Shown here piece after piece: positions 2,337 to 41,118 of a stretch of DNA of 59,387 nt. The translations under genes were made by a program, and so were the position numbers. Each line of letters starts with the position of its first letter. The first letter of the stretch is position 1. A model generated the notes under the pieces. The model made no database searches and was not told the origin of the DNA. It saw only the letters and a list, made by a program, of their open reading frames with translations. This stretch comes from a virus, in the IMG/VR virus record IMGVR_UViG_3300027969_000005, positions 1 through 59,387 of that record, one strand, 5' to 3'.

Positions 2337-2671
2337 TAGTAGCCCCCGCCAGTCTGCAGCACCGTAAGAACAACAGACCCGGAGCCAGAAGCTTGGGTCA
2401 TGCGAACAGCCGTCACCGGGTAAGCAATGTTGCTGTCCTTGGTGGTCGTCTGGGCCGTAAGGCTAGGATGGTTGGTCCAGTTTCCCGTCGCGGGGGTCCA
2501 GCCAGCATCTTGGATCTTGTCGAAGGTGTACTGAACCGTATAGTTGACCGTCCCGGTTACTTGGCAGTTCAAGGACACCTGAAAATTCATGGCGAAATAG
2601 TCGAGCGCGACGATGTTGGTCGTCTTCGCAACGGTGCTCGCATCTGTCGTAGTTCGCGTAATTGGCAGCAT
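2336..2671 (-). CDS. Small beta-rich virion protein, 111 aa
   Basis: Alternating Thr/Val strands (for example FQVSLNCQVTGTVNYTVQY at residues 29-47) and a Thr/Ser-rich composition suggest a compact beta-sandwich of the decoration or tail type. It has no signal peptide and no catalytic motif. It is translationally coupled to the coiled-coil gene downstream. I do not recognise a family; assignment to the virion rests on position and composition. Confidence 0.6.
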   Translation of the reverse strand: MLPITRTTTDASTVAKTTNIVALDYFAMNFQVSLNCQVTGTVNYTVQYTFDKIQDAGWTPATGNWTNHPSLTAQTTTKDSNIAYPVTAVRMTQASGSGSVVLTVLQTGGGY

Positions 2672-2709
2672 TGCCGATACCCCTTTGGTTTAAACCAACC
2701 ATAGCACCA

Positions 2710-2979
2710 TTAGCATTTTACGTCCCAACGCTTAAGTGCCAAATTTATACGGCTGTTGGGGTCATGCGCCGTCTTGGAAGATGTCAGCTTTTCCTTCATC
2801 CCGCACATTCGACTTCTAAAGTTCTCCCTGCGCTGGGCGCCCTCAGGGCTGTGAGACGCCTCAGAGGCCGTCACAGGCTTTTTGATGTCGTGCCCTTCAG
2901 CACGCAAGGAAGCCCGCCCACGGTCGTTCAGGCCGCCCTGCGATGACTTTCCTTCGTTACGGGTCCATGCACCAGACAT
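2710..2979 (-). CDS. Small basic phage protein, DUF6321-like, 89 aa
   Basis: The sequence begins MSGAWTRNEGKSSQGGLND and contains RRENFRSRMCGMKEKLT and a C-terminal ALKRWDVKC. This order (W-x-R-x-EG, GGLN-x-RGRAS, SFxxRMxGM, LxKW-C) matches small basic proteins common in phage structural clusters that I associate with DUF6321. The role is unknown; DNA or capsid interaction is possible given the charge. A terminator hairpin lies upstream at 2991-3019. Confidence 0.6.
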   Translation of the reverse strand: MSGAWTRNEGKSSQGGLNDRGRASLRAEGHDIKKPVTASEASHSPEGAQRRENFRSRMCGMKEKLTSSKTAHDPNSRINLALKRWDVKC

Positions 2980-2990
2980 GATCGGTCCTT

Positions 2991-3019
2991 ATAGTAAAAC
3001 GGGGGCGCAAGGCCCCCGC
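2991..3019 (-). terminator. Rho-independent terminator (minus strand)
   Basis: On the minus strand, CGGGGGC (3018-3012) pairs with GCCCCCG (3006-3000) around a 5-base loop, followed by TTTTACT. It sits between the 95-aa gene (stop 3042) and the 89-aa gene (start 2979). It should end or attenuate transcripts carrying the capsid genes. Confidence 0.75.
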
Positions 3020-3041
3020 TTCCCGGCCAAGTAAGCCGTAT

Positions 3042-3329
3042 TTAGTTGTAGTCCACTTGGACCTTGTGGCCCTTCGGAGTGGTGCCCTTCGCCGCAGAGG
3101 TGAAGGGATTCTGATCCGAAGATGCGCGACCGCCGCTCTTGCGGGCCTTGCGGCCTGCGTGAGGGGCGTCAGCAGCGCCATGGACCTTGCCCATAGCCTT
3201 GCCACCACGCTTGCGCTCCATGGCCTCGCCGGTCACCTTGTTGGTGCCAGTGTAGCTCATGGGCTTGGTGTTCATATCTTCAGCGGCGCTGTTGACGCCG
3301 CCCGTAGCGCGAGATTTACGTCCCTTCAT
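3042..3329 (-). CDS. Basic Gly-Gly motif protein, 95 aa
   Basis: A small Lys/Arg-rich protein with two copies of a basic Gly-Gly motif, RKRGGKAMGKV and ARKSGGRAS, separated by HAGRKARKSGG. The same peptide pattern recurs in the 520-aa protein at 8469-10031 (RGGKVMDKV with NAGRMARKSGG), so the two are related over this segment. Likely a virion or DNA-associated protein; no enzyme motif is visible. It precedes the terminator at 2991-3019. Confidence 0.65.
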   Translation of the reverse strand: MKGRKSRATGGVNSAAEDMNTKPMSYTGTNKVTGEAMERKRGGKAMGKVHGAADAPHAGRKARKSGGRASSDQNPFTSAAKGTTPKGHKVQVDYN

Positions 3330-3340
3330 TGGGATGCTCC

Positions 3341-4576
3341 TTAGGCTTGAGTGACGCCAAACAGGCCCACAGTGGACCCGACGTTGTAGACTGCAGGGGA
3401 CTGCTTGAGAACAATACGGTTAGCACCGCTAGAGGCAGCAGTTTGAAGCGCATATGTGCCCCGAACATCGCCGGTCGTGGTGGTTGCAACCGTAGTGACC
3501 GCAGCCGTGTAACCGGTAGCTGCCGTAACCAAGACGGGGTTCAGCGAGGCTGAATAGTCAAGGATCACATCGCCCCAATTGTCCGACCGGATTGGCAGGC
3601 CAATGATGTTGGTCGTGCCGACGCTGAAGGTGATCGTGTCAGACACGGTAGGCGTGACTGAAGCGATGTACTTAAATGCCTTCTTGCCATTGACAGCCGT
3701 GCTCTGAGCAGAGGCAGTCGTCAGGGCGATAACTTCAGTCATTGGGTAGCCGTAGATGTCATACCCAGCAACAGTGAAATTGATGTTTGCGGTCGGAGTA
3801 CCAGATGTTGGTGTAATGCTAACGGCGCGACCAAGGATGGCCATTGGGTTCCAAAGCTGGACAGTGCCCGCCTGACCAAATGGAACGCGATGAGCCAGCA
3901 GGGCGTTGATCGTGCTGGAGCCCAAGGCCGCCGTAATGGTGATTGGAGAGCCGCTGGTGCCAGCCGCCACAGGTGCGCCGCTGACGGTGTAGGTGCCGGT
4001 GAAGCCGGTGCCTGCACCCGCTGCAGCCGTGGATGGGCCATAGCCAGTGATGATCGTACCGGCGGCGATGCCGGTGCCGGAAATCACCATGCCAACAGTC
4101 AATTGGCCAACCGAAGATGACGTCGTGACCGTGAGGATATTGCCTGCAACGCTGCTGACGCCACTTGAGATGTAGCCAGACACCGAAGTGTAGGCATCAA
4201 TCCCAACAAGGCCAGTGACCGTCGCGCCAGTGTCGGCACGAGCGATCGACTGAGCAACAGCCACGCCCGTGGTCGATGAGCTAGACGAAACTAGTGTCAT
4301 CGCCGTACCGGCTGTAGTTGCGGCAGCAGCCGCGATGGCTGCGGCTGCTAAGGTATAGGGCACCGCGTTCAAAGACGTGATGGCCTGCGTCCCTAGGAAG
4401 CCACAGGTCGCGGCACCAAAGTCCTGCCCCGGCGTGTAGGTGTATGGTAGGCGCGGATCAAGAAGAGCCGCACCCCCAAAAAACAGCGACGGACCAAGCT
4501 CCGGATTATATTCGGAAGCTGGGTACGGGCTTTGCCCGTAAGAAACTACGGGACCAGAAAAAGCCGAAATGGACAT
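3341..4576 (-). CDS. Virion protein with inserted Ig-like/beta domain, 411 aa
   Basis: A Thr/Ser/Ala/Gly-rich protein directly downstream of the major capsid protein. Residues about 150-225 form a module (LTVTTSSSVGQLTVGMVIS, SGTGIAAGTIITGYG, TGTYTVS) that is also present in the proteins at 52589-54889 and 58050-59171. The flanking parts (NPMAILGRAVSI, YDIYGYPMTEVIAL, LPIRSDNWGDVIL) look like a conserved beta-rich virion body. A capsid fibre or decoration protein is the most likely role, inferred from position. Confidence 0.7.
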   Translation of the reverse strand: MSISAFSGPVVSYGQSPYPASEYNPELGPSLFFGGAALLDPRLPYTYTPGQDFGAATCGFLGTQAITSLNAVPYTLAAAAIAAAAATTAGTAMTLVSSSSSTTGVAVAQSIARADTGATVTGLVGIDAYTSVSGYISSGVSSVAGNILTVTTSSSVGQLTVGMVISGTGIAAGTIITGYGPSTAAAGAGTGFTGTYTVSGAPVAAGTSGSPITITAALGSSTINALLAHRVPFGQAGTVQLWNPMAILGRAVSITPTSGTPTANINFTVAGYDIYGYPMTEVIALTTASAQSTAVNGKKAFKYIASVTPTVSDTITFSVGTTNIIGLPIRSDNWGDVILDYSASLNPVLVTAATGYTAAVTTVATTTTGDVRGTYALQTAASSGANRIVLKQSPAVYNVGSTVGLFGVTQA

Positions 4577-4588
4577 GGTGCCCTCTCC

Positions 4589-5503
4589 TTACGAGGTTGG
4601 GAACGATCCGTAGATCGAACGCCAGTTATAGTAACCGAAGGAGTAGCGTTCGTAACCTTTCACCAATAGGTTGTCAGTCACGAAGTCAACTTGCATGTCG
4701 GTTTCGAAGCTAATGCGCTCCATGTAGGACAGACCATCGATGTTGGTCAGCAAGAACCAAGCGAACGACGAGGTCAAGAAGTCGTTGACCATGTAACCTT
4801 CTGGAAGGCCACCGGCTGCAGACATGATCGCGTTGACGTCGTTATCGGCAGTGCCGGGACGCAGTTCGGTCTTGGTCAGGCGGATTGCAACAGGCTCCAA
4901 CTGAGGCGGAATGATCAGCTTGCGGCCACGGCCAAAAACCTTAAGACCGGCTTGGTCCTTGAAGTTTGTCCGGATCGCGATCATTGCGTTCAGCAGGGTG
5001 GATTCGTTCAAGTCCACATCAGTGGTGGGCTTGTTAGCCACGGTGCCGCCGTCGATTGGGTGAGCTGTCGAGCACAGTGCAACGCCGTCACCGCCAACAG
5101 AGGCGTTGTAGGTTGTGGCGGTGTTCAAGACGTTCGCGCCGTAGATTTCCTTGGTCTGGCCGAAAGATTCGATCAGGCCGAGGTTCGACGGATGGAATTG
5201 CGTCTTGTACAGGTTGTCATCGATGGCCTTGCGAGTGATCGCATAGCCAAGGGCGATTTCCGAGTGCTCTTGGTTGTAGACAAAACGCTCACCGGCACTG
5301 TTGTCAAAGGAGGTCTGGCCACCTTCGGTCTTCAACTGAGCCAGACCGAGGTAGCGCATTTCAGCGGTACGCTCGAGAGCAAGCTTAGAATCGTGCTTCG
5401 TGAAGATCTTGTCGTACTGAGATGGGATCATCTCATACTTGCCTTCAATCCCCCGGAGACCGGGGAGCAGAAGGTCTTTAATTGCTGAAAGATTGACAGC
5501 CAT
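4589..5503 (-). CDS. Major capsid protein, Mu gpT-like
   Basis: A 304-residue protein that should form the HK97-fold head shell. The family signs are a central STAHPIDGGTVANKP segment (about residues 147-161), an ERFVYNQEHSEIALGYAITR region early on, and a C-terminal LLVKGYERYSFGYYNWRSIYG. Together these match Mu-like gpT major head subunits found in many podovirus-like phages. It sits between the decoration-type gene (5517-6107) and the 411-aa virion gene. Length is normal for the family and no protease is fused. Confidence 0.88.
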   Translation of the reverse strand: MAVNLSAIKDLLLPGLRGIEGKYEMIPSQYDKIFTKHDSKLALERTAEMRYLGLAQLKTEGGQTSFDNSAGERFVYNQEHSEIALGYAITRKAIDDNLYKTQFHPSNLGLIESFGQTKEIYGANVLNTATTYNASVGGDGVALCSTAHPIDGGTVANKPTTDVDLNESTLLNAMIAIRTNFKDQAGLKVFGRGRKLIIPPQLEPVAIRLTKTELRPGTADNDVNAIMSAAGGLPEGYMVNDFLTSSFAWFLLTNIDGLSYMERISFETDMQVDFVTDNLLVKGYERYSFGYYNWRSIYGSFPTS

Positions 5504-24872: not shown

Positions 24873-25481
24873 TCAGAAGGGTATGTCATCATCCAGCCCT
24901 GCGCGGCTGTCAGCGAGTTTCAGAAGCGGATCGTCGATCGACGCACGCACTGCGACCACCGTAGCGCCCGGAAACGACCGCTTCACAGACTGGATGAAAT
25001 GCCCGCCCTCGACCATCCGGGCGACCTCCTCCAGCGTCCACAGTTCGACGTCACGACCTCCAGCGTCGTAGGTTGCCGCCTCCGAGGCGCTACGGGCGAG
25101 CGCCAGCACCCTTCCGTTGGCCAAGGCTATCTCCCAGACCCCAGACGCCAAACGTGGCTGTGCGGCCTCCGTAGCGACCCGGTCAGCAGCCTGCCACGCC
25201 TTGACCATCCGCTGCGACTGCACACGCACCTCCTCCAGATCGCCATGATGGATCGCATGGTTCACCAAATACCGCTGCCGGTCGAACCGCTCCCGCAGCC
25301 CGACATCGACCAGCATCCGCAGGCGACCCGCACCCCACCTTCGCTCCATCTCGATCGCCACTGCGTCCATCTCATCCAGTGCCGCCTGCCCCGCGATGTA
25401 GGTGCCGGGCGACCGCTGCCAGCTTGGTGCCGCCGGTCTTTCCACCGCCTTGGGTGCTGGTTTCTCATACTGCCTCGCCAT
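24873..25481 (-). CDS. Protein with SSB-type acidic C-terminal tail, 202 aa
   Basis: A mostly helical protein (residues about 35-110), then a small beta region (GVWEIALANGRVLALARSAS). The last residues are LDDDIPF, the same tip that bacterial SSB uses to recruit repair and replication enzymes. I see no OB-fold, so it may be an adaptor or an SSB-tail mimic. It lies beside the iterons and the primase-helicase, which fits a role in loading the replisome. The tail is seen in the sequence; the role is inferred. Confidence 0.65.
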   Translation of the reverse strand: MARQYEKPAPKAVERPAAPSWQRSPGTYIAGQAALDEMDAVAIEMERRWGAGRLRMLVDVGLRERFDRQRYLVNHAIHHGDLEEVRVQSQRMVKAWQAADRVATEAAQPRLASGVWEIALANGRVLALARSASEAATYDAGGRDVELWTLEEVARMVEGGHFIQSVKRSFPGATVVAVRASIDDPLLKLADSRAGLDDDIPF

Positions 25482-25530: not shown

Positions 25531-25839
25531 CTAAACGATCATACCAACTTGCTCAATGACCCACTCCAGCATGCCGGGGTGATAATCCTCCAGCAGCCTT
25601 GCCGATCGGTTGCGGGCGGCCACCCCATCCTTCACGCCGATCTGCCACATGCGCTTGGGCACCTTCTTGGCATCAAGGTAAAGCTGCGTCGAGATCCAGC
25701 CATGCTTGGACCAGTCCACGACATGCACTAGCAGCCACTTGCCCTTCTCGGCGATGATCACATCATTCGCCCTGCGCGACATCCTCACGCCCCCGACCAC
25801 ATAGGCCAGTTCGTCTGGGCCGATCCTTCTTCTGGCCAT
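25531..25839 (-). CDS. Hypothetical protein, 102 aa
   Basis: Basic alpha/beta protein with GAGAGGAG upstream of the ATG. Features: VGGVRMSRRANDVIIAEKGK, WLLVHVVDWSKHGWISTQLY and a helical end (LEDYHPGMLEWVIEQVGMIV). No known family recognised. Located between the iterons and the SSB-tail gene. Confidence 0.6.
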   Translation of the reverse strand: MARRRIGPDELAYVVGGVRMSRRANDVIIAEKGKWLLVHVVDWSKHGWISTQLYLDAKKVPKRMWQIGVKDGVAARNRSARLLEDYHPGMLEWVIEQVGMIV

Positions 25840-25985: not shown

Positions 25986-26011
25986 TTCACTAATGTTCAT
26001 AGGGGGGGCCG

Positions 26012-26185
26012 ACTTCCGCAAATGAACTTCCGCAAACCTCCGCAAACCTCCGCATTGATTTCATTGAGCTTTTAGACCGACTTCCGCAGACTTCCGCAGA
26101 CTTCCGCAAATGCCCATTTGTTGATTTCATTGAGCTTTTAGACCGACTTCCGCAAACCTCCGCAAACCTCCGCAAGACTTCCGCA
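26012..26185. repeat. Iteron array, probable replication origin
   Basis: Eleven copies of YTCCGCA on the plus strand fall in four clusters. Units within clusters are 10 bases apart (ACTTCCGCAG or ACCTCCGCAA), one helical turn. Two clusters are preceded by the same block (TTGATTTCATTGAGC followed by TTTTAGACCGA), an A/T-rich element, at about 26054-26080 and 26120-26146. The array ends 4 bases from the stop of the primase-helicase. Phased iterons plus an A/T block are the layout of plasmid-type origins. A frame through it (repeated RRFAEVCGSRSK) is best explained by the DNA repeat. Confidence 0.75.
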
Positions 26186-26189
26186 ACCA

Positions 26190-28340
26190 TCATTCGGCCT
26201 CCTGAATGGGCTGCCAGCCGTTGTCCGCACGACCGATGACCCGCAGTCCGCGAGCCTTGGTATTCTTGTTGTGTGTGTCGAGCGCGATGACGTTGTTCAC
26301 CAGCCAAGCCTCGATCATGGTGGCCGCCATCTCTGGCGTGATGCCCCAGCCAATGATGTGCTGAACCGCATGGCGACCCTCGTGGCGGGTCTGTGGGGCG
26401 TTGGACCACGGCTTGTCTGAGTTCCAAGCTGAGGACATCGCGTCGAGGATTTTCTGGCAGATTTCTTTCGATGGCCATGCGTCGGCCTGCGGCGGTTCCT
26501 CACGGGTGATGTGGGCATAGAGCGACTGCGTACCCCGGACATCGCCCGTGTCCGTCAGCGCGAGCCTGAAGGGCACCTTCCAGCCATCTGCTGCTGCCTT
26601 GATCTTTTTGGCGGTGAGGTAACCGATTTCCTCGCCCTCCTCTCTGGTGACGGACAGGATGCTGTCGGCTGCGCCATCGAGGACGGATGATCCGCGCATG
26701 GTGCCGGTGGACTTGGCGACGTGGTGAACACCCAGCACCGCGCAGCCGAAGGTCTCGCGCACCTCGTCGCAGGCCTTGATGAACAGGGTGATCTCCTTGG
26801 CCGCATTCTCGTCCGCGCCGGGCAGGACGCGAGAGACCGTGTCCACCACGATCATGGCCGGTGGATCGCCTGCGCGGTTGGCCGTGGCCTCGATCGTGCG
26901 GAGCAGGCGGTTGATGTCGTCGCGCTGCATGAAATTGATTGACTGATGGACGAGGTAGAACGGCACGTCGTTGACGTTCTGGCCGGTGCCCTGCTCCCAC
27001 GCCATGATCCTGTGTTTCATGTCCGTGGTGCCCTCAGGGCTGATATAGATCACCGGCCCATGGCGCTTGATGTCGCGTTCGAACCACTGGTCCTGCTTGG
27101 ATGCGATGCTGAGGGCCATGCCGATGGCTATGAACGATTTACCTGAGCCCGGTGCGCCGGGGATGAAATTGAGGCTCTTCTCGATCAGCAGGCCAGAGAT
27201 CAGCCAGACCGGATCGGGCAGGCGCTTGATCTGGCCGATGTCCAGAGCCTCATAGGTGTCGGCTATCGGTGCAAACTCATCCGTGATCTCGCCGGTCTCA
27301 GGATCGTAAGCGGGTGCCGCGTCCGGTCGATAGGGCGCGGCGTCCTGCTTTGGGCTGGGTTGACTAGCTGCCTCCGCCACCTTCGTGTTCCACATGCCGA
27401 TAGCTATGGCCCACTTTTGCTGGAACAGGCTGATGCCCCTGCCCTCACGCTCAAGCAGGATATGGTTGGCTGTGCCGGGCTCTCGGATGCGCGATTTGAC
27501 GTTGCGCTCGTAAAGCTGCCAAGCGTCTCGCATGTGCTCTGGTTCGGTGGGGGCGATGGGGAAGCCCGCCGTCTCCCTGTAGAGGTCAAGGACGCGACCC
27601 CAGATCAACCGGGTCATATAGTCCTCACGACCATCGATGATGGCTCCAAAGGCGTCCGTGGCGGCCTCAGGCGTCGGTGTGGAGGTGACAGGCCCCTGTG
27701 GCTGCGTGTCAGCGCCGCTGGCGGCTGTCCTGCCATGCTGGGCTAGTAGGGCGTCCACAGCATTGCAAAGCCACATGGGGGCTTCCTCGGCATCCATGTC
27801 CCATGGTGCCAGACCGTCGAGCCACTGGTAGACGCCCAGCACGCCCTGAGACGGCGGCAGCATGGCAAAGCCTCCGAAGCCCCTGATGTCCACGCCGATA
27901 GGCGTCTTGCCTGTCGGAGGTGTCCACCAGTCTGGGGCTGCGAACACAAGTTGCAGGCCGCCGGACTGCGTGCGCTGCGTCCATGTCTCGATGGCCATGC
28001 CATTGTTGTGCAGAGCCAGCAGGCCCTGCCACCACTGGTTTGCTGCGTCCGTTTTTGACGTATCGAGGTCCAGCACCCAGTAGCGTTTGCCGTGCGCCTT
28101 CACGCCGGTGATCATGCCCATATTGATCCGCAGGCGATACTGGCCAGATGTGGCGTCGTACCACTGCGTGAACAGTTGATCGTCGATCAGATCGTTCTCG
28201 TGAATCCGCCATGGCACCGCTGGCCGCTTCCACTGATCCGATTCGCCCGGCGCGAGAGCCGGGACGACCTGAAAGCCTTTTGATCGGTACATATCCGCCC
28301 ACTGCTGGGGCGACGAAAATTCGGGATCGAAATCGGTCAT
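26190..28340 (-). CDS. Primase-polymerase / RepA-type helicase
   Basis: 716 residues with two domains. The N-terminal 200 match bifunctional primase/polymerase (PrimPol): catalytic pair D91/D93 (VLDLDTS), SGGLQLVF (126-133) and GVDIRGFGGFAMLPPSQ (149-165). The usual His of SGGxH is Gln130. Residues about 375-600 are an AAA/RecA-type helicase like RSF1010 RepA: Walker A GAPGSGKS (395-402), Walker B MIVVDTVS (496-503), GVHHVAKS (537-544) and GSSVLDGAAD (550-559). It should open and prime phage DNA at the adjacent iterons. No phage polymerase is present, so the host enzyme is presumably used. Confidence 0.85.
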   Translation of the reverse strand: MTDFDPEFSSPQQWADMYRSKGFQVVPALAPGESDQWKRPAVPWRIHENDLIDDQLFTQWYDATSGQYRLRINMGMITGVKAHGKRYWVLDLDTSKTDAANQWWQGLLALHNNGMAIETWTQRTQSGGLQLVFAAPDWWTPPTGKTPIGVDIRGFGGFAMLPPSQGVLGVYQWLDGLAPWDMDAEEAPMWLCNAVDALLAQHGRTAASGADTQPQGPVTSTPTPEAATDAFGAIIDGREDYMTRLIWGRVLDLYRETAGFPIAPTEPEHMRDAWQLYERNVKSRIREPGTANHILLEREGRGISLFQQKWAIAIGMWNTKVAEAASQPSPKQDAAPYRPDAAPAYDPETGEITDEFAPIADTYEALDIGQIKRLPDPVWLISGLLIEKSLNFIPGAPGSGKSFIAIGMALSIASKQDQWFERDIKRHGPVIYISPEGTTDMKHRIMAWEQGTGQNVNDVPFYLVHQSINFMQRDDINRLLRTIEATANRAGDPPAMIVVDTVSRVLPGADENAAKEITLFIKACDEVRETFGCAVLGVHHVAKSTGTMRGSSVLDGAADSILSVTREEGEEIGYLTAKKIKAAADGWKVPFRLALTDTGDVRGTQSLYAHITREEPPQADAWPSKEICQKILDAMSSAWNSDKPWSNAPQTRHEGRHAVQHIIGWGITPEMAATMIEAWLVNNVIALDTHNKNTKARGLRVIGRADNGWQPIQEAE

Positions 28341-28480: not shown

Positions 28481-28843
28481 CTATGGATCAACCCCCAGCG
28501 CACGGTCAATCAATTCTCTGCCCCTCGGTGCGAGCAGATATCCAACCATTGTTGTGGTGATGATATCCGCCCCCAGCTTTTTCCGCATCCGGCTGACATA
28601 GACCTTTACGTCGTGGTTGGTCTGGGGGTCTTCGGTCCTCTGGTGAACACGGTTCGCATGCAGGAAGTCTGAGCGTCTGGGGCGACCATTGGCATGGTAC
28701 AGGTGCATGAGGATACCAGCCTCATTGGGCGTGATGCCATAGGCCATGCACAGCTTGGCGTGCGCCTCTGTGTGGGCGTAGCCGATCTGCAGTTCCAGAT
28801 CAGCGATCTTGGCCTTCAGCTCTTCGCATTGGGGACAGGTCAT
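28481..28843 (-). CDS. Winged-helix regulator, CtrA/OmpR-type DNA-binding domain
   Basis: 120 residues. A short N-terminal coiled coil with C3-x2-C6 (MTCPQCEELKAKIADLELQI) replaces the receiver domain. Residues about 35-115 form a winged helix: ITPNEAGILMHLYHANGRPR, HDVKVYVSRMRKKLGADIIT and the wing TTMVGYLLAPRG. The VKVYVSRMRKKLG helix is that of CtrA/OmpR recognition helices. Lacking a phosphorylation domain, it may act constitutively on phage or CtrA-type host promoters. Its stop precedes the RuvC-like gene start overlap region (28840). Confidence 0.72.
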   Translation of the reverse strand: MTCPQCEELKAKIADLELQIGYAHTEAHAKLCMAYGITPNEAGILMHLYHANGRPRRSDFLHANRVHQRTEDPQTNHDVKVYVSRMRKKLGADIITTTMVGYLLAPRGRELIDRALGVDP

Positions 28844-29316
28844 TTCAGGCCTGCCCCATAAATCGCGATCAGGGATGCGTCTGATCGACCGTCGTCTTTG
28901 ATGCGCTTAAACAGATCAGCCTGATCGGGCCAGATTTCCATAGCCCTCTGGCGCGATCCGTCTTTGCCGCCACGAACCTTGATAGCCATCTGCCAGACCT
29001 TCGGGGTGACGATGGTCGTGGGGATCCCACAGGCGGCCAGAGCGCCGATCACCACGCCTGTGCTGTAACCGAAGCTGAACACGCTGGTGACGCCTTGGCC
29101 GGGCATAGCACCCACGCGCTCAACGCAAGCGGAGGCGATCTGCTGCTCCTGCGACGACAGAATGTGCGCGACCATCGCCGGGCTGATTTCGCGTTTCTTT
29201 TTGCCAGACCGCATGACCTCAAGGGTTGGCATGTCGTGGACCTCGATCTGGTGCGAGGCGGTGTCGTAAAAGGCGATGGCCCCGGACAGGCCGGGATCGA
29301 TACCGATGACTATCAT
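28840..29316 (-). CDS. RuvC-like Holliday junction resolvase
   Basis: Start ATG 29316 (MIVIGIDPGLSGAIAFYD) with AGGAAAC upstream; a longer reading to 29490 has no support. 158 residues with the RuvC acids: D7 (GIDPGLSGA), E66 (CVERVG), and D142/D146 (KDDGRSDASLIAIYG). It would cut branched DNA before packaging or during recombination. It overlaps the regulator gene downstream by ATGA. Confidence 0.85.
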   Translation of the reverse strand: MIVIGIDPGLSGAIAFYDTASHQIEVHDMPTLEVMRSGKKKREISPAMVAHILSSQEQQIASACVERVGAMPGQGVTSVFSFGYSTGVVIGALAACGIPTTIVTPKVWQMAIKVRGGKDGSRQRAMEIWPDQADLFKRIKDDGRSDASLIAIYGAGLK

Positions 29317-29327
29317 TTGGTTGTTTC

Positions 29328-29456
29328 CTAAATTTCTGTTTTGAACCAGACAAAATGAGGGATCTGCGCCGCCTGCCGATACGCCGCGATGACGTAGGCT
29401 GGCGGCGCGGCGGCAGGGCGCAGGACGGTAAGCTGCGCCGGGGTGAGGGAGATCAT
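29328..29456 (-). CDS. Small hypothetical protein, 42 aa
   Basis: ATG 29456 overlaps the stop of the 107-aa gene (GAATGA) and the gene ends with TAG at 29328, 11 bases before the RuvC start. Sequence starts MISLTPAQLTVLRPAAAPPA and ends HFVWFKTEI. Supported only by coupling; weak otherwise. Confidence 0.4.
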   Translation of the reverse strand: MISLTPAQLTVLRPAAAPPAYVIAAYRQAAQIPHFVWFKTEI

Positions 29457-29776
29457 TCTCCAGACTTGCGCTTGAGGGCCGCGTCGGCAAGGGCGCCCAT
29501 CGCAGGGTTTGCGGTGTGGTCGGCGATCAGTTCCTCGCCATCGGGGTCATTACCCCAGACGAGAAGCATCCAACCGACCTTGTTGCCGGTGGCGTCGAAA
29601 AACAGCATCTGGTCTTCGTCGGTCTCACCGATGTCGTCCCAGATCTCATAGAAGGTGGTGGATCGTGGCGACCACTCCTCGCCGTCATGGACGGCGATCG
29701 AGTAGCCTTCAGCCAGCGCGGCCTTGACCAGACGGCGGGCGACGCGCTGCTCACCCCTGTTAAGTTCTGCGTACAT
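29453..29776 (-). CDS. Hypothetical protein, 107 aa
   Basis: Begins MYAELNRGEQRVARRLVKAA, then HDGEEWSPRSTTFYEIWDDI and a strand-rich centre (EDQMLFFDATGNKVGWMLLV) with an acidic loop (GNDPDGEELIADHT). Resembles small alpha/beta phage proteins of unknown function. It lies between the membrane protein and RuvC in one minus operon. Confidence 0.6.
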   Translation of the reverse strand: MYAELNRGEQRVARRLVKAALAEGYSIAVHDGEEWSPRSTTFYEIWDDIGETDEDQMLFFDATGNKVGWMLLVWGNDPDGEELIADHTANPAMGALADAALKRKSGE

Positions 29777-30244: not shown

Positions 30245-30814
30245 TTACCGATGACCAACCGCATGTCGAAATTTCCGCTTCGGCGGCGGGCTGGCAATGG
30301 TGCCCATCTTGCGGTGGAACCGGCAATAGGATGACCCGTCGTCCTTAGTCTCGCCGCACATCTTCATGCTGTCGCCCTCGCCGGGCTGTAGCGTCTCCAC
30401 AGGCCACCGGCACCCGCCAGAGCGCAAGAGTGCCAAGGGTGCCGACCAAGCCCCTGTGGGCGGCTCTGGCGGCGTTTCTGTGGCTTTTTGAGGGACTATG
30501 GCCATGCGGGGCTTCTCAGGCTCTGGGGGTTTGGGTGGGGCCGCAAGCTTAAAAGGGACACGCTTCCACGGGTTGGCGAAATTGTGCCGAACGCCACGGT
30601 TATTGATCCTTTTAAACGTGATCGTGGATTCTGGCAATTCAGGCGCGACGCCCTTGGTCCTGAGGCGGCTCAATTTGCCTATCACCGCGTTTCGGGTCAC
30701 GCCGTAGCCAAGTTCCTTCGCGATCTGGGAGGCTGTTTTGCCCGCAACGTACATATCGACAAGGCGCGTGATGGCATCCTCTGTCCAGTCAAAGCAGTCT
30801 TCTCTTTTGGTCAT
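30245..30814 (-). CDS. gcrA: GcrA-like cell-cycle regulator
   Basis: 189 residues from ATG 30814, overlapping the previous stop (ATGA). N-terminal HTH (TEDAITRLVDMYVAGKTASQ, IAKELGYGVTRNAVIGKLSR) is the DNA-binding part of GcrA. A Pro-rich linker is followed by the sigma-interacting-type end GGCRWPVETLQPGEG and MCGETKDDGSSYCRFHRK. In Caulobacter GcrA binds sigma-70 and activates methylated promoters. The phage copy could redirect host RNA polymerase. Full-length; no missing motif. Confidence 0.88.
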   Translation of the reverse strand: MTKREDCFDWTEDAITRLVDMYVAGKTASQIAKELGYGVTRNAVIGKLSRLRTKGVAPELPESTITFKRINNRGVRHNFANPWKRVPFKLAAPPKPPEPEKPRMAIVPQKATETPPEPPTGAWSAPLALLRSGGCRWPVETLQPGEGDSMKMCGETKDDGSSYCRFHRKMGTIASPPPKRKFRHAVGHR

Positions 30815-31164
30815 TGAGTGGACCCTTCCATATGAAAGAATTGTATAGGAAATTGCGATAGTGCTGCGGCCCGACACCGATCGATCAGGGTGTCCTCCGG
30901 TTCACAGCAGGCATCGCAAATGAAGCCGATCAGGTGGGTCCGATCGGTGTAGCCATCCTTGATCGAGTAGGTGATCGAGATGGCGGCGGCATCGAGGGCG
31001 ACGTCGGGCAGGACGTCGGAGCAGACGGCGCAAATACCGCCGGGCCGCGATCTGGCCAGATTGTCGCCAATCTCTCGCATGAGGGCGGTGATGACCGGAT
31101 CGTCACCACCGAAGGACATATAGAGGGCGGCCTGCTCTGGCCGCACCACAAGGCAGTTGATCAT
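30811..31164 (-). CDS. Cys-pair protein, 117 aa
   Basis: Two Cys clusters, C45-AV-C48 and C82-DAC-C86 region, around SITYSIKDGYTDRTHLIGFI, suggest a zinc-binding beta fold. N-terminal helical (ALYMSFGGDDPVITALMREI). Coupled to gcrA downstream and the 74-aa gene upstream by ATGA overlaps. Function unknown. Confidence 0.6.
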   Translation of the reverse strand: MINCLVVRPEQAALYMSFGGDDPVITALMREIGDNLARSRPGGICAVCSDVLPDVALDAAAISITYSIKDGYTDRTHLIGFICDACCEPEDTLIDRCRAAALSQFPIQFFHMEGSTQ

Positions 31165-33808: not shown

Positions 33809-34480
33809 ATGGCTATCTATGACAACGTCGGCTCCGATTCCTCTGGCGGCGGCGATATCATCCCCATCGTCAAGTACGATGCCCGCGCCGGTCGGATGTT
33901 CCGCATCGATCGTGAAGACGGCACCAACACGCCTGTCGATATCACCCGCGACTTTAAGGCTGTCTTTGATTTCGAGAACATCGAGATCGGTTACATCCTG
34001 TTTGCTGCAGGGTCCGCCCCAAGCTTCGCCATGGCGCGGTTTGGCAGCCCCATGCCCGCAGCGCCTTCGCCTCTGTACAAGCGCGGCACGCGGGTCATGA
34101 TCAAGCTGGCAAGCTCTCTGGGCGGTGACGTCCGTGAGATCGCCGGTAACAGCCGGGCCTTCCTTGACGGCATCAATGCCATCCACACGGCCTATGAGGC
34201 TGGCATGGCGGCGAACCCCGGCAAGCTGCCTGTCGTGGCTCTGAAGGACACGATCCCCGTCACCAGCGGTCAGGGCGAGAAGAAGTCCACAAACTACACG
34301 CCGGTCTTCGAGATCGTCTCGTGGGCTCCTCGGCCTGCCGACCTTACCTACACGCCACGGGCAACCGCAGCGCCCGCCACGGCGGCTCCTGAGGCCTCCA
34401 GAGGCTCTCCGCCAAGCACGGGGTCTACCCGTGCGGAGCCGCCTAAGGCATCGCCTGTTGCCGACGACGACTTCGGCTAG
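33809..34480 (+). CDS. Probable ssDNA-binding protein with acidic tail, 223 aa
   Basis: Core (about 20-165) begins FRIDREDGTNTPVDITRDFK, AVFDFENIEIGYILFAAGSA and ends TNYTPVFEIVSWAPRP, a beta-rich conserved phage domain encoded next to RecB-like nucleases. A Pro/Ala linker leads to the acidic tip VADDDFG. The organisation (basic core, flexible linker, acidic aromatic tip) is that of SSB and T7 gp2.5. Family identity is uncertain; role inferred from neighbours and tail. Confidence 0.62.
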   Translation: MAIYDNVGSDSSGGGDIIPIVKYDARAGRMFRIDREDGTNTPVDITRDFKAVFDFENIEIGYILFAAGSAPSFAMARFGSPMPAAPSPLYKRGTRVMIKLASSLGGDVREIAGNSRAFLDGINAIHTAYEAGMAANPGKLPVVALKDTIPVTSGQGEKKSTNYTPVFEIVSWAPRPADLTYTPRATAAPATAAPEASRGSPPSTGSTRAEPPKASPVADDDFG

Positions 34481-36672: not shown

Positions 36673-37776
36673 TTAGGATGCCTTTATGTAAGCGGTGGTG
36701 CCGGTGAAGGTTTGGACGACCGGGAGGGTGAAGGTGGTTTGGGCTACGGAGTAGGCTATGGTGGCGGAAGAGGCTGAACCATTGGCTACGGCAACAAAAT
36801 TCTGCACTCCTAGTAAACCGCCATAAGCAACAGAAGACCAACTTAAAGCCGCTGACATTGTTCTCGCAGTCCATGTTATCCCATCGGAAGATGAGGCTGC
36901 GGCAGTGCTTTGGGAGACTGCTACAAAAGCTCCGTTACCAAAAGTTACCGAACGCCAATTTCCTGATGAGGGTAAAGTTCGCTGGGTCCACGTGATCCCA
37001 TCTGTTGATGTGGCGGCGATGTTAGTCTCTGCTATTGCCGAAAAAACACCGTTTCCATAAGCCACGGCAAACCAATTCGCACTCGCAGGCAAAGTTCGCT
37101 GGGTCCACGTAATGCCATCGGGGGAAGTTGCAGCAATATTAGCGGGGCCTTGCGCTACCGCAACAAATGTTCCATTGCCATATGTAACGGAAGACCAATT
37201 TGCACTTGGCAAAGTTCGTTGGGTCCATCCCGCGCCGTTGGTTGATGATGCCGCGACGGTAGACGGACCCGTTGCTATCGCTACAAAAACGCCACTGCCA
37301 TATGCTGCGGATTGCCAAACGGGTGCCGTTGGCAAGGTATATTGGTACCAAGTAGCACCGTCATATGATATCGCAGCGACGTTGGTACCGCCAACCGCCA
37401 CAAACGTACCATTTCCAAAAGTTACGGCCCTCCAGTCCACGCTTGCTGGTAAGGTCCGCGCTGTCCACGTTATGCCGTCAGGAGAAGACGCGGCAATAGT
37501 AGAATTTGCAGCAACTGCTGCAAAAACACCGTTTCCATATGTTGCAGAACTCCACTGTGCAGACGCGGACATTGACCTAGCCGTCGCCGTAAACGCCGTC
37601 ACAGGCGTCGTCACCAGCGCAGCCAAAACGGGATACGAGGACGCCAAATATGAAGCAGTCGCGCTATTCAACGGCAAATACCCCGGAGCCGACAGCGCAT
37701 AGAGCGAGTAGGTGTAGTCCCCGACGTTCAGGCCGGTGGTGCCGAAGTTGACCGTGTTTGCGATGTTGCTAGCCAT
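36673..37776 (-). CDS. Seven-unit beta-propeller fibre protein 4, 367 aa
   Basis: Opens NTVNFGTTGLNVGDYTYSLY and GYLPLNSATASYLASSYPVL, shared with its three paralogues. Then come seven units of about 40-45 residues with the pattern ARTLPxSxxWxSVxFGNGxF followed by SxDGITWT (for example ARTLPASVDWRAVTFGNGTF, QRTLPASANWFAVAYGNGVF). Ends FTLPVVQTFTGTTAYIKAS. A seven-bladed propeller is expected. Likely a receptor-binding or sugar-binding fibre tip. Last of the four in transcription order; coupled by TAATG. Confidence 0.78.
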   Translation of the reverse strand: MASNIANTVNFGTTGLNVGDYTYSLYALSAPGYLPLNSATASYLASSYPVLAALVTTPVTAFTATARSMSASAQWSSATYGNGVFAAVAANSTIAASSPDGITWTARTLPASVDWRAVTFGNGTFVAVGGTNVAAISYDGATWYQYTLPTAPVWQSAAYGSGVFVAIATGPSTVAASSTNGAGWTQRTLPSANWSSVTYGNGTFVAVAQGPANIAATSPDGITWTQRTLPASANWFAVAYGNGVFSAIAETNIAATSTDGITWTQRTLPSSGNWRSVTFGNGAFVAVSQSTAAASSSDGITWTARTMSAALSWSSVAYGGLLGVQNFVAVANGSASSATIAYSVAQTTFTLPVVQTFTGTTAYIKAS

Positions 37777-38891
37777 TAGGTCGCCTTAACATATGCAGTG
37801 GTGCCAGCCTTGGGCGCTACTACGGGGAGGGTGAAGGACGTGGCGTTTACGGCGTAGTCTATTGTGGCTGCGGCAGAAGATGAGTTTGACACCGTTACAA
37901 ACTTGCCCGCACCAAAGGCTAGGCCGTACCATGTGGTGGAAGAGGGTAGGGTTTGAGATGCCCAAGTGATCCCATCGGGTGAAGTGGCGGCGGCAGTGGA
38001 CTGAGACACCATGACGAAAGTATTGTTGCCGTAGGCGCTTTTGGTCCACGTGGCCGAGGCTGGCAAGGTTCGGGCGGTCCAGTTAAACCCATCGGTAGAG
38101 GTTGCGGCGACCGTGCCGGTTCCACCTGAGTTGGCTAAAAAGATGCCGTTGCCGTAAGATAGGCCCGACCAGTTTTGTGCGGATGGCAATGTGCCCGCTA
38201 CCCATGTGATACCGTCAGCCGAAACGCTTGCGGCGGTTGACGCGCTTGAAGCTACCGCAACAAAAACGCCATTACCGTAAGCAACTCTAAACCAACTTGC
38301 CGAGGCCGATAGGGTTCGAGATGTCCAAGTGATCCCATCTGGGGAGGTGGCGGCAAGGGTAGACGAGGCGGCTACAGCGACAAACAGGCCATTGCCAAAT
38401 GTTACACTTGCCCAATTCCCAGACGGCATAGTGCGCTGCGTCCATGTAATCCCATCGGGAGACGTTGCCGCAACAGTGGATGGGCCGCTTGTTACCGCCA
38501 CAAAAATGCCATTTCCAAAAGTAACAGACCGCCAGTCTTGCGCGGATGGAAGGGTTCTCGCCGTCCATGTAATCCCGTCAGGCGAAGTGGCGGCTGCGGT
38601 GGACGTGGTAAATAGCCCGCCCGTCGTCACAAAGACACCGTTGCCAAAGGCCACATCGCCCCAAGACGCGCTGGAAGGCAAAGTCCTAGCCGTCGCCGTA
38701 TAGCTCACAGGCGTAATCACAGGCACGATCAGCGCCCCAAGCGCAGGGTAAGACGACACGAGGTAGGACGCCGTGTAGCTATTCAGAGGCAAGTACCCCG
38801 GCGAGGGCATGGCATACTGAGAGTACATCCAGTCGCCCACGGACTGTGTGGTGGCCCCGAAGTTGACAAGCGATGATGCGTTAGTGGGCAT
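37776..38891 (-). CDS. Seven-unit beta-propeller fibre protein 3, 371 aa
   Basis: Same plan: NFGATTQSVGDWMYSQYAMP, then PGYLPLNSYTASYLVSSYPA, seven propeller units (for example ARTLPSAQDWRSVTFGNGIF, QRTMPSGNWASVTFGNGLF, SRTLSASASWFRVAYGNGVF), and C-terminal FTLPVVAPKAGTTAYVKAT. Unit surfaces differ between paralogues while the W/FGNG core is fixed, as expected for binding proteins under diversification. Start overlaps the upstream stop region. Confidence 0.78.
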   Translation of the reverse strand: MPTNASSLVNFGATTQSVGDWMYSQYAMPSPGYLPLNSYTASYLVSSYPALGALIVPVITPVSYTATARTLPSSASWGDVAFGNGVFVTTGGLFTTSTAAATSPDGITWTARTLPSAQDWRSVTFGNGIFVAVTSGPSTVAATSPDGITWTQRTMPSGNWASVTFGNGLFVAVAASSTLAATSPDGITWTSRTLSASASWFRVAYGNGVFVAVASSASTAASVSADGITWVAGTLPSAQNWSGLSYGNGIFLANSGGTGTVAATSTDGFNWTARTLPASATWTKSAYGNNTFVMVSQSTAAATSPDGITWASQTLPSSTTWYGLAFGAGKFVTVSNSSSAAATIDYAVNATSFTLPVVAPKAGTTAYVKAT

Positions 38892-38893
38892 GT

Positions 38894-40006
38894 CTAGGTC
38901 GCCTTAACGTATGCGGTGGTGCCGGTGATGGGGGAGATTACGGGGAGGGTGAAGGTGGTTTGGGTGACAGAGTAGGCTATGGATGCTGCGGCTGTTGTTG
39001 GGCCTTGAGCCACAATAACAAAGTTTTGCGTTCCGGGTACGCCTCCGTAGCACCCCCCAACGTAATCTGCTGCAGGCAAGGTTTGGGCCGTCCAAGTTGT
39101 GCCATTGGTAGATGTGGACGCAACAGCCGTAGTTCCGGAAATTGCAACAAAGCTGCCATTTCCAAACATAACTTTTCGCCAAGTAGCAGAAGCAGAAAGC
39201 GTCCTTGATGTCCAAGTAATGCCATCGGATGACGTTACCGCAGCATTTGATCCGTAGGCCACCGCGACAAACGTACCATTCCCAAAAGCCACACTAGCCC
39301 AGTTTGCCGCCGATGAAAGCGTTCTGGCGGTCCATGTAAAGCCATCGGGAGATGTGGCTGCGGTGGTTGATAGCGATCCGCCCATAACGGCAACAAAGGT
39401 ATTATTTCCGAAAGCAACGCCAATCCAACTTCCTGAAGATGGAAGAGTTCTGGATGTCCAAGTGATACCATCTGGGGATGTTGCCCCCAAGGCAGACCCT
39501 TGCATTACGCCAACAAATATACCGCCTCCAAAACCAACATAGTATAAAGAAACGGGTGATGTTCTAGATGTCCAATTAATACCATCGGGTGATGTTATTA
39601 CACTTGTGCCGCCACTTAAAGCAACAAATATGCCATTACCAAAAACAACATCTGTCCATCCCGTTCCGACAAATGCGCTGGTTACCCAGTTTATTCCATC
39701 TGAACTAGTTGCTATGCGGCCATTACTAGCGCCACCCGTGCTAACAGCAACAAATTTTCCGTTTCCGTAGGCTACTGCGTTCCAGTCGGCTGATCCGGGC
39801 AAAGTCCTAGCCGTAGCCGTAAACGCCGTCACAGGCGTAGTCATCAAGGCGAACAGCGCAGGGTAAGACGAAGCCAGATACGAAGTCGCCGCATTATCCG
39901 CAGGCAAAAAGCTAGGAGCCGACCGGGGTCCAATCGCGTAGATGAACTCCCCCACGGCTGGGCCTGTGGTGCCGAAGTTGACGAGGCTTGCTGCTGAGAC
40001 TGCCAT
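38894..40006 (-). CDS. Seven-unit beta-propeller fibre protein 2, 370 aa
   Basis: The most divergent copy: NFGTTGPAVGEFIYAIGPRS, APSFLPADNAATSYLASSYP, then seven units including two degenerate ones (TSAFVGTGWTDVVFGNGIF, SRTSPVSLYYVGFGGGIF). Ends FTLPVISPITGTTAYVKAT. The middle of the gene is A/T-richer in synonymous positions than the N-terminal end, suggesting different histories for the blades. Confidence 0.76.
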   Translation of the reverse strand: MAVSAASLVNFGTTGPAVGEFIYAIGPRSAPSFLPADNAATSYLASSYPALFALMTTPVTAFTATARTLPGSADWNAVAYGNGKFVAVSTGGASNGRIATSSDGINWVTSAFVGTGWTDVVFGNGIFVALSGGTSVITSPDGINWTSRTSPVSLYYVGFGGGIFVGVMQGSALGATSPDGITWTSRTLPSSGSWIGVAFGNNTFVAVMGGSLSTTAATSPDGFTWTARTLSSAANWASVAFGNGTFVAVAYGSNAAVTSSDGITWTSRTLSASATWRKVMFGNGSFVAISGTTAVASTSTNGTTWTAQTLPAADYVGGCYGGVPGTQNFVIVAQGPTTAAASIAYSVTQTTFTLPVISPITGTTAYVKAT

Positions 40007-40008
40007 GA

Positions 40009-41118
40009 TCAGGTCGCCTTAACGTAGGCCGTGGTGCCGAAGCGAGCAGGCACGACGGGGAGCACGAAGGTGGTGGCGGTTACGGCGTAGTCAATAGTGG
40101 CCGCTATGGTGCCGGTGGTAATGGATGTAGCCACAAATTTACCCGCCCCAAAAGCCAAACCAATCCAATTAGATGAGGATGGCAATGTTCGTGCAGTCCA
40201 TGTGACGCCATCGGAAGAGGTCGCAGACGCAGAAGAGCCGTAAGCAATAGCTACAAAACTATTGTTTCCGTATCGTACTTGTCTCCACGTTGCGGTGCTT
40301 GGAAGGGTTCTTGACGTCCAATCTAACCCATTTGTAGACGTGGCGGATATTGTTCCAGAGGTAAATGAAAGAGCTGAAAACACACCATTTCCAAAAGCGA
40401 TGGTCGCCCACGAGGACGAAACCGGCATAGTTCCTAAAACCCAATTTACGCCATCAGAAGAAACAGCCGTGTTTGTTGCCGGGGAGGCAACCGCTACAAA
40501 AACGCCGTTGCCATAAGTTATGTCAGCCCAATTTAAAGAGGAAGGTAGCGTTCGCGCAGTCCACGTAACTCCATCAGTAGACGTAGCAGCGGCGTTGGTC
40601 GCGGTTCCCCCTATGGTTACAAAAATACCATTCCCGAAGGTTACTGCGGTCCAAGTTGATGAAGAAGGAAGCGTTCTAGCGGTCCAAGTTACACCATCGG
40701 GAGAAGTTGCTGCTGAAGTTGATCCGTTAGCGACAGCTACAAAAACACCATTTCCAAAAGTCACAGAATACCAAGATGCGGCGGATGGAAGCGTTCGTGC
40801 CGTCCAAGTGATGCCATCTGGAGACGTGGCGGCAGAAGTGGTGTTTGCCCCCAAAGTTACAAAAACGCCATTTCCATATGCAATAGCTTGCCACTGGGCA
40901 GTGGCTGGCAATGTCCTAGCCGTAGCCGAATAAGCCACAGGCGCAATCACCGGACTAACAATCGCAGCCAAGGCCGGATAGGACGACACAAGATAGGACG
41001 TGGTGTAGCTGTCCAGAGGCAGATAGCCCGGTGCCGTCCGCGCATAGGCGGAGTACAGCCAGTCCCCAACCGCTAGGCCCGTGGTGCCGAAATTGAGAAG
41101 CGTCGAGGCGTCAACCAA
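40009..41118 (-). CDS. Seven-unit beta-propeller fibre protein 1, 369 aa
   Basis: First of the four copies. NFGTTGLAVGDWLYSAYART, then PGYLPLDSYTTSYLVSSYPA, then seven regular units (ARTLPATAQWQAIAYGNGVF, ARTLPSAASWYSVTFGNGVF and others) and FVLPVVPARFGTTAYVKAT. The N-terminal part probably docks to the tail and the propeller binds the host surface. Overlaps the preceding fibre gene by a few bases. Confidence 0.78.
   Translation of the reverse strand: MVDASTLLNFGTTGLAVGDWLYSAYARTAPGYLPLDSYTTSYLVSSYPALAAIVSPVIAPVAYSATARTLPATAQWQAIAYGNGVFVTLGANTTSAATSPDGITWTARTLPSAASWYSVTFGNGVFVAVANGSTSAATSPDGVTWTARTLPSSSTWTAVTFGNGIFVTIGGTATNAAATSTDGVTWTARTLPSSLNWADITYGNGVFVAVASPATNTAVSSDGVNWVLGTMPVSSSWATIAFGNGVFSALSFTSGTISATSTNGLDWTSRTLPSTATWRQVRYGNNSFVAIAYGSSASATSSDGVTWTARTLPSSSNWIGLAFGAGKFVATSITTGTIAATIDYAVTATTFVLPVVPARFGTTAYVKAT

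Follow-up and report, generated by a model that had tools for sequence, protein, structure and literature searches.

Why should a phage protein that is not a single-stranded DNA-binding protein (SSB) end in the very residues by which bacterial SSBs engage their partners? The question is raised by a gene at positions 24873-25481 (minus strand) of the IMG/VR virus record IMGVR_UViG_3300027969_000005, the entire 59,387 nt of which constitute the window analyzed here. Its open reading frame (ORF) starts with ATG, has AAGGA upstream and encodes 202 amino acids that terminate in GLDDDIPF followed by the stop codon. The codons of the terminal LDDDIPF occupy positions 24876-24896 on the same strand, and the protein is alone among the window's ORFs of at least 40 amino acids in having such an end. 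In bacteria, the SSB tip is a hub for replication and repair enzymes and docks the chi subunit of DNA polymerase III, DnaG, PriA, RecO and others; here it is found on a non-SSB phage protein. We propose, with a probability of roughly 0.6, that this protein, the founder of a new family, would serve as an adaptor within the replication module of the phage, docking host SSB partners via its copy of the SSB tip and restoring a contact that would be lost on single-stranded DNA (ssDNA) coated by the phage's own SSB.

A sequence-only reading of the window, which gave the position of the gene and its LDDDIPF end exactly, had described the remainder of the protein as helical without a visible OB-fold and had proposed structure prediction as a check. 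In the AlphaFold (AF2) model, based on an alignment of 19 sequences and with a mean predicted local distance difference test (pLDDT) score of 81, this description is right for the main part. Residues 25-105 form a three-helix bundle (helices 25-49, 60-79 and 82-105), a small alpha/beta unit spans residues 115-169 (strands 115-119, 125-129 and 145-149, helices 150-169), and residues 192-202 are disordered with pLDDT below 50. An OB-fold is absent from the model. The SSB-like tip might still suggest that the adaptor is itself an SSB with a hidden OB-fold. We regard this as highly improbable: the three modeled strands belong to the small alpha/beta unit beside a helical bundle, neither the adaptor nor 18 relatives match the SSB family (PF00436) or, among PHROGs, the gp2.5-type phage SSBs (phrog_112), and the phage carries a separate SSB-like gene. 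The adaptor is no SSB in its body, but its tail may let it work like one. No family match to the adaptor was obtained in Pfam, PHROGs or NCBIfam, and its relatives have no consistent match to a Pfam or PHROG family. Fold searches against the PDB returned generic helical bundles only (SCIN, the DnaK lid) and no firm match, the Z values being at a level that can reflect a common arrangement only. Against BFVD, 13 viral predicted models without recorded function (A0A6J7XNJ8, A0A516MHL7, A0A6J5MLA2 and ten more) matched with Foldseek E-values of 1.1e-6 or better; judged by their modeled folds, these proteins probably belong to the adaptor family.

Scans with a single sequence, run on viral and genome contigs, brought up no relatives of the adaptor. 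The entry point to the family was a tblastn match against plasmids: p1 of Caenibius sp. WL (38 kb), which bears a terminase and other phage genes, encodes a relative (E 3e-15) directly after an AAA helicase gene. Alignment-based scans then added the roseophages CRP-811, CRP-821 and CRP-823 and many viral contigs; in one viral-contig scan, tblastn confirmed 476 relatives, and the best 80 among them were retained. In total, the set assembled here holds 267 complete family proteins from 269 loci, which fall into 95 clusters (below 70% identity). Most members sit in uncultivated viral contigs, and five bacterial or metagenome-assembled genome contigs also hold relatives. Weak matches in Burkholderia phages, Rhizobium plasmids and Pseudomonas megaplasmids were unconfirmed and left unused, the one in Rhizobium lying on the strand opposite to an annotated HD-domain gene. 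Similarly, the label "terminase small subunit" attached to one BFVD model was set aside because in Caenibius p1 two other genes separate the relative from the terminase gene. The adaptor family is large, widespread, undescribed and without a name.

Across this diverged family a terminal [ILVMF]P[FW] is kept in 68 of the 95 clusters. In 1000 trials with shuffled C-termini (last 25 residues of every protein), the tip turned up in a mean of 0.17 clusters and a maximum of 2. The existence of relatives without the tip could be taken to mean that the LDDDIPF end is a chance match, but these counts, together with 11 of 16 clusters at 40% identity, refute that explanation, and the tip is a conserved element of the family as judged from the aligned ends. 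Anchored on the right, conservation reaches 71% for F at position -1, 73% for P at -2, 60% for I at -3, 81% for an acidic residue at -5 and 41% for L at -7; the conserved motif thus covers about seven residues, with a sharp fall-off further in. DDEIPF, NDEIPF, DDDIPF and NDDIPF are the most frequent ends. Among about 5250 other ORFs (at least 60 amino acids) of the same loci the strict tip occurs in only 7, all of them phage SSBs. Variants with residues beyond the aromatic position are found in loci L011-L014, L066, L081 and L002, with the ends DDIPAFQ, DDVLPWDDR, DDPVPFELAPSGA and LDGLPFAMEGN.

The genomic context of the adaptor gene is conserved as well. A RepA-type helicase is encoded directly upstream in 87 of the 90 clusters with enough flanking sequence, and an SSB-like gene usually lies just upstream of the helicase, giving the usual order SSB-like gene, RepA-type helicase, often direct repeats, and adaptor gene. 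In the window, the helicase (26190-28340, minus strand, 716 amino acids) combines a RepA-like AAA_25 domain (Pfam E 1.5e-35) with a Prim-Pol primase domain (E 2.9e-14), which is also present in some of the other helicases encoded upstream of family genes. Repeats between helicase and adaptor gene occur in many family loci. Those of the window, TGCGGAAGT/TGCGGAGGT, are iteron-like direct repeats at 26009-26185 that contain seven of the eight exact copies in the window (0.6 expected by chance), mostly with a spacing of 10 bp. TGCGGAAGT is also found between helicase and adaptor gene in Caenibius p1 (7 copies) and in loci L028 and L086. Within the block, a 55-bp unit (TTGATTTCATTGAGCTTTTAGACCGACTTCCGCA...) at 26055-26109 is repeated at 26121-26175 with 93% identity, and the block therefore seems to have grown by duplication. 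The iteron-like layout makes it plausible that the repeats are an origin, and with it the earlier statement that the adaptor gene lies next to the origin: the repeats are 0.5 kb away, separated from it by one ORF of 102 amino acids (25531-25839, minus strand) without a Pfam or PHROG family.

The sequence-only reading overlooked that the phage has an SSB-like protein of its own. It is encoded at 33809-34480 on the plus strand, apart from and on the opposite strand to helicase and adaptor, consists of 223 amino acids ending in ADDDFG and is related to a Caenibius protein (BLAST E 2.7e-31). In the AF2 model, this common type of SSB-like protein combines a core rich in beta structure with a disordered tail. 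Its top match in the PDB is a chain of the phiC31 excisive synapse (integrase-RDF) with Z 7.2, followed by the RB69 SSB core (Z 5.1) and, lower, by several bona fide SSBs. The modeled structure suggests an OB-fold SSB that would bind ssDNA. As an aside, the phiC31 match may make it worth asking whether phage SSBs are linked to recombination directionality factors. A second type is gp2.5-like, the SSB of CRP-811 matching phrog_112 with E 5.8e-16. Profile comparison revealed no link between the common type and the gp2.5-type SSB of the CRP phages, and we therefore regard them as two kinds that occupy the same place in the gene order. They differ in their ends: tails of the common type terminate mostly in DFG, DEF, EEF or similar (the DDFG/DDEF type) and bear a host-type tip in 1 of 126 cases, compared with 28 of 29 for the gp2.5-like SSBs.

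It also escaped the earlier reading that the tip resides on the phage SSB or on the adaptor but rarely on both. Scoring the strict terminal tip in the 63 clusters with a recognized SSB, we found it on the adaptor only in 40, on the SSB only in 6, on both in 1 and, in its exact form, on neither in 16 (one-sided Fisher p 0.006). The adaptor lacks the tip in six of the seven clusters whose phage SSB is tipped and, where only the SSB has it, often ends in an acidic DF-type tail; in L197, for example, the SSB ends in QELDDEIPW and the adaptor in MNDDIDFG. The same exclusion is seen with a common-type SSB, ending in VDDDLPF, in L036, a contig binned as Asaia. The sole double case, L246, has the tip on both the adaptor and a gp2.5-type SSB, and there a DUF5906/VapE-type protein (2536-5163 of that locus) replaces the RepA-type helicase. 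The SSB tip could accordingly be a detachable element of the module, needed about once and carried by either the phage SSB or the helicase-linked adaptor, which would drop it when the SSB carries it and may then end in an SSB-like DF tail. We put the odds of this slightly below even and consider the one-tip-per-module rule a lead rather than a result.

This pattern bears on two further explanations. In T7 gp2.5 and similar phage SSBs, acidic-aromatic tails dock on a phage protein or fold back as a DNA mimic. The adaptor tail might do likewise, with the RepA-type helicase or the SSB of the phage as its docking site, and its likeness to the host tip would then be convergence. The constant presence of the helicase next door would agree with this, as would the drift of some adaptor tails (DDIDFG, DELDF) to the DF-type ends seen in phage SSBs. 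However, the commonest adaptor ends have the bacterial I-P-F form rather than the DF of the adjoining phage SSBs, and a tendency to lose the tip beside a tipped phage SSB is unexpected for a contact with a phage protein; we therefore consider this explanation unlikely. Less likely still is a decoy function, in which the tip would draw SSB partners (nucleases, RecO, RecQ, replication proteins) off the host SSB, thereby shutting down host replication or protecting phage DNA. Phage factors against host nucleases are common, and the tip by itself would suffice for competition. Yet a decoy would need neither the association with replication genes maintained in 87 of 90 clusters nor the loss of the tip beside a tipped phage SSB, and a tail present in a single copy would sequester poorly unless the protein were abundant.

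How, then, would an adaptor work? The ssDNA of the phage would be coated by the phage's own SSB-like protein, whose DDFG/DDEF tail is unlike the host tip, so that host enzymes relying on SSB to locate ssDNA would have nothing to dock on. The disordered tail of the adaptor would present a copy of the SSB tip and restore docking at the phage origin or fork, while its folded part would be held by the origin, the phage helicase or the phage SSB, a place we infer because the gene order is fixed. The likeness to the host is close: in three carrier genomes, the chromosomally encoded SSBs have the ends MDDDIPF, IDDDIPF and LDDDIPF. Three points lead us to name chi, a clamp-loader subunit of the host DNA polymerase III, tentatively as the likeliest single partner: the large ORFs of the window include no recognized DNA polymerase, a Prim-Pol domain is present, and chi is encoded in all three carrier genomes examined. 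RecO, PriA or DnaG are alternatives. In the paper on CRP-822-type phages, subgroups that lack a DNA polymerase are likewise argued to depend on host machinery (PMC12629253).

Several observations weigh against the proposed adaptor function. The tip is not universal, as 27 of the 95 clusters (about 28%) are without its exact terminal form. In some relatives residues follow the Phe (DDIPAFQ, LDGLPFAMEGN), which the classical pocket for the SSB C-terminus is not expected to accept. On the tree, the changes of the SSB tip amount to about three, and the exclusion is not significant once corrected for relatedness. Finally, the net charge of the folded part of the adaptor, a putative DNA binder, is near neutral. 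The sequence-only reading had proposed a mimic of the SSB tail, and this idea is upheld in part: the tip is conserved, sits at the very C-terminus behind a variable, disordered linker and resembles that of the host SSB, and the order of SSB-like gene, helicase, repeats and adaptor gene fits a role in replication; binding to a host partner is the predicted element, and more than a quarter of the clusters lack the exact terminal tip. If true, the proposal would explain how phages with a different SSB and no recognized DNA polymerase recruit the host polymerase. It is the first functional lead for the adaptor family, and since the tip can be removed by deleting two residues, it offers a simple experimental handle.

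Other genes of the window complete the picture. A RuvC-like Holliday junction resolvase (phrog_1770, E 7.4e-36) is encoded at 28840-29490 on the minus strand, its true start probably being an ATG near 29316. The GcrA-like cell-cycle regulator at 30245-30877 (minus strand; PF07750, E 1e-20) is a sequence match that speaks for an alphaproteobacterial host. At 36673-41118 (minus strand), four ORFs in a row, each of about 370 amino acids, have weak DUF6242 matches and look like tandem paralogues; they are perhaps beta-propeller proteins of the virion.

Compared with known systems, the adaptor resembles T4 gp59 and other helicase loaders or assembly proteins in being helical and in its association with the replicative helicase and with SSB function. 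This is an analogy only: gp59 binds SSB and helicase, whereas the adaptor imitates the SSB tail, and the PDB gave no firm fold match. With the gp2.5-type phage SSBs (phrog_112; T7 gp2.5, Enc34 SSB) it shares an acidic tail with an aromatic end and a place in the same replication module, and in the CRP-type phages it is the gp2.5-type SSB that bears the host-type tip instead of the adaptor; unlike these SSBs, the adaptor has neither an OB-fold nor a sequence match to them. In the open-licence literature, covered nearly throughout by title and abstract, no phage protein that naturally bears an SSB tip without being an SSB came to light. A further close parallel is the C-terminal tip of bacterial SSB itself (DDDIPF), the same terminal motif on a disordered tail, with the last six residues of the SSBs in all three carrier genomes identical to those of the adaptor. 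In contrast to bacterial SSB, the adaptor has no OB-fold and a shorter linker, and it is encoded beside a helicase by a phage with an SSB-like protein of its own. This kind of interaction is already known, and what is new is its carrier and the apparent exchange of the tip with the phage SSB.
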